From: Pleomorphomonas diazotrophica
GTDB lineage: Bacteria; Pseudomonadota; Alphaproteobacteria; Rhizobiales; Pleomorphomonadaceae
Direction of reading: 5' to 3'
DNA length: 64,000 nt
NCBI RefSeq assembly: GCF_002844595.1
Contig: NZ_PJNW01000002.1
Span: 1,116,001 to 1,180,000, forward strand
Below are positions 8,396 through 10,355 of this stretch, piece by piece. The position numbers were made by a program, and so were the translations under genes. The notes beneath the pieces are model-generated. The model was given only the letters and a program-made list of their open reading frames with translations. It searched no databases and was not told the DNA's origin. Positions within the stretch are counted from its first letter, which is position 1. The number at the start of each line of letters is the position of its first letter.

Positions 8396-8695
8396 TCAGT
8401 AGAAGCGCGGGATTGGCCCGTCTTGCGGGGTCTGGTCCTCCAACTCCACCTCGATATCGTCCACATAGCACCAGCCCCAGCCCTCAGGCGGATCGTAACC
8501 CTCGATGATCGGGTGGCCCGTCTGATGGAAGTGGGCTCGGGCATGGCGGTGCGGGGATTGGTCGCAACAGCCGACGTGCCCGCACTCACGGCAAATCCTG
8601 AGATGCAGCCATTGACTGCCGATCTTCAGGCACTCCTCGCATCCCCTGGCGCTGGGCGTCACCTTGCGGATCAGGTTCGTGTGACTACAGGACAT
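8396..8695 (-). CDS. UBP-type zinc finger protein
   Basis: This 99-residue protein is a single ZnF-UBP domain, the fold that in eukaryotic deubiquitinases binds the ubiquitin C-terminus. Zinc ligands are visible in order: C3 and H5, C19 and C22, C35 and C38, C43, and histidines of the HRHARAHFHQTGHP stretch. A pocket-like aromatic set (W29, Y67, W73/W75) is also present. Bacteria of this kind have no ubiquitin, so the bound peptide is unknown. The ATG is at 8695. The gene follows the flavoprotein gene by 22 bases on the same strand and is very probably co-transcribed with it. Confidence 0.88.
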   Translation of the reverse strand: MSCSHTNLIRKVTPSARGCEECLKIGSQWLHLRICRECGHVGCCDQSPHRHARAHFHQTGHPIIEGYDPPEGWGWCYVDDIEVELEDQTPQDGPIPRFY

Positions 8696-8717
8696 CGCGC
8701 GGTCTCCCTCAAGGCCT

Positions 8718-10355
8718 CTAGGCGACGGCGGCTTGTGCGGCCAACTTGGCGTGAACCATAGAGACCACGGCCGCCCCCTCGCCCACGGCCGCCGCCACGC
8801 GCTTGGTGGAACCAGCCCGAACGTCGCCGATTGCGAACACACCCGGCATGTTCGTTTCGAGCGGATGAGCCCCCTTGCCAGTGACCACGAAGCCGCGATC
8901 ATCGGTCTCGATACAGTCTCGCACCCAGTCGGAGTTGGGATCGGCGCCGACGAACAGGAACAGATGGCGCACCTCCAGGCGACGATTGCTGCCGTCACGC
9001 CTATTCTGGAAGGTGGCCGCCGCGAGACCGGTCGTTCGATTGCCTTCCAAGGCAACCAGTTCCTCGCCGACATGAATTTCGACGTTCGGGAGTGCGGCGA
9101 TGCGATCGATCAGATACTGCGACATGGTTTCCTTGAGGTCGCGGCGAACGACGAGATGCAGCTTCTTCACCTGCGGAGCCAAGAAGACGATCGCCTGCCC
9201 CGCGGAATTGCCGCCGCCAATCAGAGCAACCTCCTCGCCGGCGCATAAGCGAGCCTCGATGGCCGACACCCAGTAGGAAACGCCGGCGCCCTCAAGCTCC
9301 CTGAGGTTCGCCACGTCCGGCCGCCGGTATCGCGCACCCGATGCGATCACGACGAAGCGCGTTGTGATCTGGCGGTTGCCGGCGCACATGAGGACCGGAT
9401 GAGGCCCGTCGCACGTCATTCGCTCCACTTCCAGAGGGATCGCGATTTCCGCGCCGAATTTCAGGGCTTGGTTGAAAGCACGCCCGGCAAGTGCCTGGCC
9501 TGATATTCCCGTCGGGAAGCCCAGGTAGTTCTCGATCCGCGACGACGCTCCGGCCTGTCCTCCCACCGCCCGTGCATCGAGGACAATGACCGACAAGCCT
9601 TCCGAAGCGGCATAGACAGCCGTTGCGAGACCGGCCGGCCCGGCACCGACCACTGCGACGTCGAACAGTTTGTCGGGATCAATCTCCGGCAGGACACCGA
9701 GGCAGGCCGCGAGATCCTCGTCGGATGGGCGGCGGAGCACCGGCCCGCTCTGGCAGACGACCAGTGGCAGTTCGTTGGGCGGAACTCCCATCCGTTCGAT
9801 GAGCTGACGACCCTCTTCATCGACGCTGGCGTCGAGGACAAGATGCGGCAGTCCGCTTCGGTTGAGGAAGTTCTGCAGTCGCACGACATCGGGGCTGTTC
9901 GGCCTGCCGATCAGGACGGTGCCTGCGCCACCCTCTTCGATAAGGCTGACCCGGCGGAGGATCAGAGCGCGCATGACGATCTCCCCCAGCTCGGCCGATC
10001 CGATCATGAGCGCCCGCAGGTGGGCCGCGTCGAAAGGCAGCGCAGTGCAACCGTCCGGGCCGGCTCGGCCGGCGGCAAGCGAGGGCCGGCCAGCGAGCTG
10101 GTTCACCTCGCCGGAGAACTGCCCCACGCGATGCGTGACGATCGGCACCTCGCCCTTCAACCCGTCACGCCGAACGATGTCGATCGCCCCCTCGAGCACG
10201 AGCCAGGCTGGCGCGCCATGGCCACCGACCTCGTAGATTGCCGCACCGGGATCGAAGTGCGTTGCTGGGCCGCTGGCGAACCGGCGCGCCACATCCATTT
10301 GGGATGCGCTCAGTACCGGAAACATTTGGCTCGCACGGGTCTCGATGATGCTCAT
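8718..10355 (-). CDS. fused cyclic-nucleotide-binding / glutaredoxin-like / thioredoxin-reductase-like flavoprotein
   Basis: This 545-residue protein has three parts. Residues about 10-135 resemble a cNMP-binding barrel (LVLEGAIDIVRRD, VGQFSGEVNQLAG). Residues about 145-220 resemble a glutaredoxin-like domain with IGRPNSPDVVRLQNFL, where the CPxC dithiol is replaced by NSPD. Residues about 230-545 match thioredoxin reductase: FAD site VVGAGPAGLA (235-244), GGQAGASSRIENYLGFP, NAD(P)H site IGGGNSAGQA and C-terminal GVFAIGDVR. The dithiol expected near 361 (CATC in the enzyme) reads WVSA. It is therefore a pyridine-nucleotide flavoprotein without a visible disulfide relay, possibly gated by a cyclic nucleotide. 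ATG at 10355. Confidence 0.86.
   Translation of the reverse strand: MSIIETRASQMFPVLSASQMDVARRFASGPATHFDPGAAIYEVGGHGAPAWLVLEGAIDIVRRDGLKGEVPIVTHRVGQFSGEVNQLAGRPSLAAGRAGPDGCTALPFDAAHLRALMIGSAELGEIVMRALILRRVSLIEEGGAGTVLIGRPNSPDVVRLQNFLNRSGLPHLVLDASVDEEGRQLIERMGVPPNELPLVVCQSGPVLRRPSDEDLAACLGVLPEIDPDKLFDVAVVGAGPAGLATAVYAASEGLSVIVLDARAVGGQAGASSRIENYLGFPTGISGQALAGRAFNQALKFGAEIAIPLEVERMTCDGPHPVLMCAGNRQITTRFVVIASGARYRRPDVANLRELEGAGVSYWVSAIEARLCAGEEVALIGGGNSAGQAIVFLAPQVKKLHLVVRRDLKETMSQYLIDRIAALPNVEIHVGEELVALEGNRTTGLAAATFQNRRDGSNRRLEVRHLFLFVGADPNSDWVRDCIETDDRGFVVTGKGAHPLETNMPGVFAIGDVRAGSTKRVAAAVGEGAAVVSMVHAKLAAQAAVA

Follow-up and report, generated by a model that had tools for sequence, protein, structure and literature searches.

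What might a flavoprotein built like a disulfide reductase do without the dithiols of that enzyme class, and why would it lie beside a zinc finger whose fold reads ubiquitin tails in eukaryotes? The question is raised by two genes of Pleomorphomonas diazotrophica in the window, by which we mean the whole 64,000-nucleotide stretch of DNA analyzed here. Both genes lie on the minus strand. The first encodes a 545-amino acid flavoprotein of the thioredoxin reductase (TrxR)/AhpF type (8718–10355) and the second, downstream of it, a 99-amino acid zf-UBP zinc finger (8396–8695); the spacer of 22 bases (8696–8717) reported in a preliminary description of the locus, made from its sequence, was confirmed. 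The larger protein matches Pfam Pyr_redox_2 with an E value of 9.6e-33. The smaller protein matches zf-UBP (PF02148) at 49.1 bits, above the cut-off of 22.7, and aligns over residues 1–98 with PDB 2ida (phmmer E 9.8e-52), a bacterial member of the same family that was deposited as 'Hypothetical protein' with no function named. The genome has a single full-length gene for the flavoprotein and a single zinc-finger gene, together with a distinct canonical TrxR that contains CATC (locus L002). Comparison with the homologues in Pleomorphomonas oryzae gave dN/dS ratios of ~0.11 (0.095/0.853) for the flavoprotein and 0.056 (0.068/1.225) for the zinc finger, which indicates that both genes are maintained under purifying selection; these ratios, together with full-length relatives, rule out pseudogene status for either. 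Two promoter-like sites were found at the pair compared with 0.5 expected in shuffled sequence; of these, one lies 122–151 bases upstream of the flavoprotein start, on the minus strand. The same scan detected no terminator at the pair, and no inverted repeat was found upstream of it. Neighboring genes in the window, read by eye, included no chaperone, Dps, or two-component genes.

The AlphaFold2 model of the flavoprotein (mean pLDDT 90.6) divides into three parts, and AhpF and TrxR rank at the top of a Foldseek search with this model; sequence identity is 24–32% across the 50 matches listed, AhpF included. Residues 1–140 (9936–10355) form a β barrel of the cNMP type, as judged from DSSP assignment on the model, a sub-threshold Pfam match, and the best sequence match in the PDB, a trypanosomatid PKA regulatory subunit. 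Residues 141–226 (9678–9935) form a thioredoxin-fold domain that resembles glutaredoxin (Grx) and NrdH. Its sequence matches to NrdH-redoxin are weak, and the Grx-like assignment therefore draws on the model, the AhpF-like order of domains, and P197, which 120 of 123 distinct homologues retain. Residues 227–545 (8721–9677) comprise a TrxR-type FAD/NAD(P)H module that is recognized by both Pfam and Foldseek. A thioredoxin-fold domain followed by such a module is the arrangement of AhpF, which supplies the best Foldseek matches (4o5q and 4xvg); the window flavoprotein differs from AhpF in that it has an additional barrel and lacks a dithiol in either module.

The missing dithiols were followed across 123 distinct homologues collected by tblastn at more than 200 bits to four thiol-less queries. 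Such queries deliberately keep genuine TrxR and AhpF out of the set; one AhpF that carries CPHC, in locus L051 and 4 kb away from a zinc finger, turned up among 60 matches and was discarded. In the set picked in this way, none of the 123 proteins has CxxC at either redox site. The TrxR site, where CATC is expected, reads WVSA (residues 362–365; 9261–9272) in the window protein, and no homologue has a cysteine at these four positions, where the NAD(P)H-domain CxxC of TrxR and AhpF would lie. At the Grx site (CPxC or CxxS), cysteine occurs in 0/123 at residue 154, in 1/123 at residue 157 (L129), and in three actinobacterial rows at residue 152. CxxC motifs anywhere are confined to five of the 123 stretches: four lie in the first 40 letters, which may precede the gene owing to the extension of the stretches, and the fifth (L129) lies near residue 428. 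The preliminary description had held that both dithiol centers are absent and had read the TrxR site as WVSA; both statements stand, and an intact CxxC at the same positions, which it had named as counterevidence, was found in no homologue. Its reading of the Grx site as NSPD was right as to the lack of cysteine but displaced by one residue; in an alignment made by eye, SPDV (residues 154–157; 9885–9896) is the better fit. A cysteine loss confined to this species is thus ruled out, and the missing dithiols are a trait of the flavoprotein family as sampled. Records L104, L105, and L135 carry the name 'thioredoxin-disulfide reductase', and the redox cysteines are absent in those that were aligned. 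In Sphingomonas sp. H160509 (L053:4335-5992) the reductase-like gene occupies two different reading frames, reflecting either a pseudogene or a sequencing error.

The motifs for cofactors have fared differently from those for thiols. Residues of the FAD motifs GxGxxG, GGQ, and EN (G237, G239, G242, G265, G266, Q267, E275, and N276) are present in 123/123 homologues, and D511 of the GD motif is present in 122/123. A passage in PMC5627308 gives GGGxxAxE and HRRD as the NADPH motifs of TrxR and AhpF. The first reads GGGNSAGQ throughout, or almost throughout, the flavoprotein family, with glutamine replacing glutamate; among the arginines of the second, R404 is found in all 123 homologues and R405 in only 48. 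The flavoprotein is predicted to bind FAD and NAD(P)H. It shares its fold and FAD motifs with thioredoxin-disulfide reductases, whereas it lacks their CxxC and scores 206 bits against the NCBIfam model TIGR01292 (TRX_reduct), for which the curated cut-off is 343.45.

A flavoprotein of this kind could still reduce disulfides if a separate protein supplied the thiols, with a thioredoxin encoded in the same operon, a DsbA-like neighbor, or Cys44 of the zinc finger as candidates for an electron relay in trans. The flavoprotein has one cysteine that might take part, Cys371 (9243–9245); at 120/123 it is nearly invariant, and no other cysteine in the family is. However, Cys371 is kept even where the zinc finger is absent, and electron transfer from low-Mr TrxR to thioredoxin requires the enzyme's own CxxC, according to a passage in PMC5627308.

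The N-terminal domain bears on how the flavoprotein might be controlled. The preliminary description proposed a cNMP-like barrel and, from it, control by cyclic nucleotides. The barrel itself is backed by the model and by a Streptomyces relative, whose match to cNMP_binding (PF00027) reaches 62.5 bits and meets the Pfam cut-off, although the window protein scores 23.0 bits against a cut-off of 27.5. Control by cyclic nucleotides fits the data poorly. The arginine that binds the phosphate in cNMP barrels occurs in none of the 110 barrel-bearing homologues that are not gapped at this column; Ser92 takes its place in the window protein, and residue 90, two positions before it, is arginine in 81/123. 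The trypanosomatid PKA regulatory subunit that is the best PDB sequence match (6flo, E 0.0034) likewise lacks this arginine, and such subunits are described in a passage of PMC10959531 as binding purine nucleosides. The glutamate that replaces Ala202 in the trypanosomatid proteins is nevertheless absent here, with 0/123 at residue 85. Input domains are also exchanged between members of the family, which carry a barrel, a receiver (REC) domain, or neither. In Tsukamurella (L131) a REC-Grx-TrxR flavoprotein is followed by a cNMP-barrel kinase and then by the zinc finger; Deinococcus aetherius (L130) has a receiver-domain flavoprotein and a barrel kinase on a plasmid from which zf-UBP is absent; and in Burkholderia, Cupriavidus, and Gloeocapsa the Grx-like domain alone precedes the TrxR module.

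The zinc finger resembles eukaryotic ZnF-UBP domains (USP16, USP49, and HDAC6) in its Pfam family, its Cys/His pattern, and, by alignment, the tryptophan of the WCY motif. It differs from them in being a stand-alone protein of 99 residues and in the site that holds the carboxylate of ubiquitin. A passage in PMC10424181 describes HDAC6 residues G1154, R1155, and Y1184 as holding the carboxylate of a tail-mimicking ligand and the R84A/Y117A mutant of USP16 and the R1155A/Y1184A mutant of HDAC6 as binding-deficient. HMM alignment with human USP16, ungapped over the loop, sets the Gly-Arg pair against Cys44-Asp45 of the window finger (8561–8566), and the distance from the aligned arginine place to the WCY tyrosine is 33, the same as that from R84 to Y117 in USP16; the alignment with USP49 has a one-residue gap at this spot. 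Cys44 and Asp45 are each present in 99/99 distinct bacterial fingers, none of which has the Gly-Arg pair or any arginine at residues 43–49. CCD was also read by eye in three further fingers. Among other positions compared, W29 and W75 are found in 99/99 fingers, and residue 77, the place of the WCY tyrosine, is Tyr in 74, Phe in 23, and Trp in 2. The AlphaFold2 model of the finger (mean pLDDT 55.9) was set aside. With the arginine that holds the ubiquitin tail missing, the zinc finger probably does another job. A separate observation concerns the C-terminus of proteobacterial fingers (8396–8432 in the window), where a TPQxGPIPR[FY]-like tail is mostly conserved and could be a docking peptide. 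Gly93, Pro94, and Pro96 of the tail are found in 92/99 bacterial fingers, and the actinobacterial fingers that were read lack it.

These data weigh on the model put forward in the preliminary description, in which a cyclic nucleotide controls the flavoprotein and the zinc finger holds the C-terminal tail of its target. The family assignment of the barrel, the tryptophan of WCY (99/99), and its frequent tyrosine speak for this model, and the basic residue found at position 50 in most fingers (Arg in 75/99, Lys in 18/99) could in principle stand in for the lost arginine. Considering that the phosphate-binding arginine of the barrel and the Gly-Arg of the carboxylate site are both gone throughout the proteins compared, we regard the model as very improbable, and the claim that the finger binds a C-terminal tail was not sustained. 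A second possibility arises from Cys44, which is invariant, lies at the place of the tail-holding site of eukaryotic fingers, and is taken not to be a zinc ligand by homology and from eukaryotic structures. The finger itself could be the missing redox center, with Cys44 trading electrons with the flavoprotein, perhaps through Cys371, and passing them to thioredoxin or to oxidized clients of DnaK and ClpB. We consider this improbable; if it were true, a ubiquitin-reader fold would serve as a bacterial electron carrier, and two separate genes would encode the parts of one disulfide reductase.

How tightly the two genes belong together was assessed in two ways. The first used the best 80 of 576 zf-UBP loci found, a set that is biased to close relatives and in which a contig edge cuts some stretches short. 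A reductase-like gene was present within the fetched stretch in 58/80 loci, and in 57/80 it lies no more than 600 bases from the matched regions. For the 22 loci without a neighboring reductase, 21 genomes were tested; 19 carry a reductase elsewhere, and the two with no match are metagenome-assembled. No reductase match was found on the replicons that carry the finger in Embleya, Variovorax PBL-E5, and Variovorax 2u118; beyond Pseudomonadota plasmid records were used, and absence on plasmids says little. The second approach used evenly drawn genomes. In the class-level sample (190 genomes) zf-UBP was found in 6 and a full-length reductase-like gene in 12, a thirteenth candidate (G103) having been dropped as a short TrxR match; in the phylum-level sample (299 genomes) the numbers were 10 and 29. 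Over both samples, all 15 distinct genomes with zf-UBP have the reductase-like gene, whereas 22 of the 37 genomes with the reductase-like gene lack zf-UBP (Fisher p 1.5e-8 and 1.5e-11 for the two samples, uncorrected for relatedness). The zinc finger thus appears to need the flavoprotein and the reverse is untrue, which implies that the flavoprotein does something alone. The link proposed in the preliminary description, which had counted frequent solitary occurrence of either gene as counterevidence, therefore holds in one direction: the finger never occurs in these samples without its partner (0/15), while the flavoprotein often does. It had also proposed to test whether the genes are always adjacent or fused; the pair lies within 0.5 kb in 14 of the 15 genomes (the exception being G167). 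Fusion was rejected, as no open frame containing both was seen in the loci examined.

It is conceivable that the genes merely travel together as co-regulated members of a general stress regulon, without physical partnership. The many flavoproteins without a zinc finger, the several Sphingomonas that carry zf-UBP at another genomic site, and the variable neighbors would fit such an explanation. It accounts less well for the one-way dependence (15/15) and for repeated re-linkage in several orientations. The reductase precedes the finger in 56 loci (two of which, L113 and L118, repeat L029 and L057), the finger precedes the reductase in 20, 4 pairs are divergent, and 1 is convergent; beyond these, two pairs are more widely spaced and 27 fingers lack a reductase in their locus. 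In a quick tree built from 124 rows, adjacency changes 20 times compared with 38 in shuffles, and at least 12 changes are forced by well-supported branches. Moreover, the two genes overlap in Rhodococcus and Nocardia. We therefore judge mere co-regulation to be unlikely. One pair, on a contig titled 'Actinobacteria bacterium 21-64-8' (L029), is 58–78% identical to that of the window and groups with Alphaproteobacteria in the tree; the contig title or bin may be wrong.

Some gene neighborhoods outside the window suggest a tie to stress responses. Of seven zf-UBP-bearing plasmid records from Actinobacteria, four (Rhodococcus twice, Nocardia, and Streptomyces) show the order dnaK, grpE, dnaJ, cbpM, clpB, trxA, zf-UBP, flavoprotein. 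Tsukamurella, another of the seven, has the kinase arrangement instead, and no reductase or chaperone genes accompany the fingers of Embleya and Nonomuraea over 18 kb each. Zf-UBP lies within ~0.2 kb of 13 of the 14 best-ranked plasmid thioredoxins, several of which are near-copies. The fourteenth, from Streptomyces NBC_01001, belongs to a chaperone operon with the flavoprotein on a plasmid that has no zf-UBP. A PsiE-family gene lies near that operon (L137:13762-14304), and PsiE is also part of the heat-resistance island. The Streptomyces operon thioredoxin matches the thioredoxin-2 zinc ribbon below threshold and is 37–36% identical to the thioredoxin of that island (trx-GI, trxLHR), whereas ordinary TrxC proteins rank higher than the island thioredoxin. 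In the plasmids of Nocardia and Rhodococcus, a DUF1931 gene lies directly 3′ of the flavoprotein (L110:9950-10390, L111:9956-10396). The Paraburkholderia pair has beside it a Clp-type ATPase that contains two Clp_N repeats. Dps was found in the stretch in 16/80 zf-UBP loci and in 0/24 reductase loci without zf-UBP, a difference confounded by taxonomy; the corresponding numbers, uncorrected for taxonomy, were 15/80 and 1/24 for FixJ-like matches and 15–16/80 and 1–2/24 for kinase matches.

The same neighborhoods could supply the thiols that a relay in trans would require. A thioredoxin with intact WCxPC, such as the operon thioredoxins of Rhodococcus and Streptomyces, directly precedes the pair or the flavoprotein in five actinobacterial records, two DsbA/Trx-fold genes directly precede the Grx-TrxR-like gene on a Gloeocapsa plasmid (L133:4697-7233), and Cys44 is present in every finger compared. 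In proteobacterial loci (L005-L103 and L113-L127), however, the Streptomyces thioredoxin query gave no match at E 1e-8, and ClpB and DnaK queries gave none in the proteobacterial loci searched. Taken with the need of TrxR for its own CxxC, the lack of a thioredoxin match in these loci leaves the relay our second-ranked explanation, and a rather unlikely one.

The explanation we favor, tentatively, is that the pair forms a stress-linked module of two proteins, an NAD(P)H/FAD redox switch and a dedicated, repurposed zinc-finger partner. A switch is preferred because the two proteins have lost thiols and ligand-binding arginines but kept their folds and cofactor motifs. The AhpF/TrxR-type core, devoid of relay thiols, would act as a redox switch rather than as a disulfide reductase, and the N-terminal input domain would set its state. 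In the window the input would be the cNMP-type barrel, which probably has a ligand other than a cyclic nucleotide; in certain other bacteria a receiver domain would take this role, next to a kinase that bears a barrel. The zinc finger would be the dedicated partner of the flavoprotein and may use the old ubiquitin-tail pocket, remodeled with Cys-Asp, for a target other than a C-terminal carboxylate. It is tempting to speculate that the two proteins touch and that their output meets the DnaK/ClpB/thioredoxin refolding machinery in some Actinobacteria and Dps and two-component genes in some Proteobacteria. Several observations count against such a module: the flavoprotein alone in 22/37 genomes, the NBC_01001 chaperone operon with no zf-UBP, the Embleya and Nonomuraea loci, the window pair without stress neighbors, and the partial retention of R405.

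The individual parts already carry database names; for the pairing, our search of the open-licence PMC literature found no paper. Three records name such proteins 'thioredoxin-disulfide reductase', yet the chemistry implied by this name is missing from the family as sampled. A finger fold that reads ubiquitin tails in eukaryotes is tied to a flavoprotein in Pseudomonadota and Actinomycetota, and in some Actinobacteria the same finger is tied to machinery for protein refolding. Two questions are thereby made testable: what role a ZnF-UBP domain plays in organisms not expected to have a ubiquitin tail, and whether a dedicated switch links NAD(P)H state to protein quality control.
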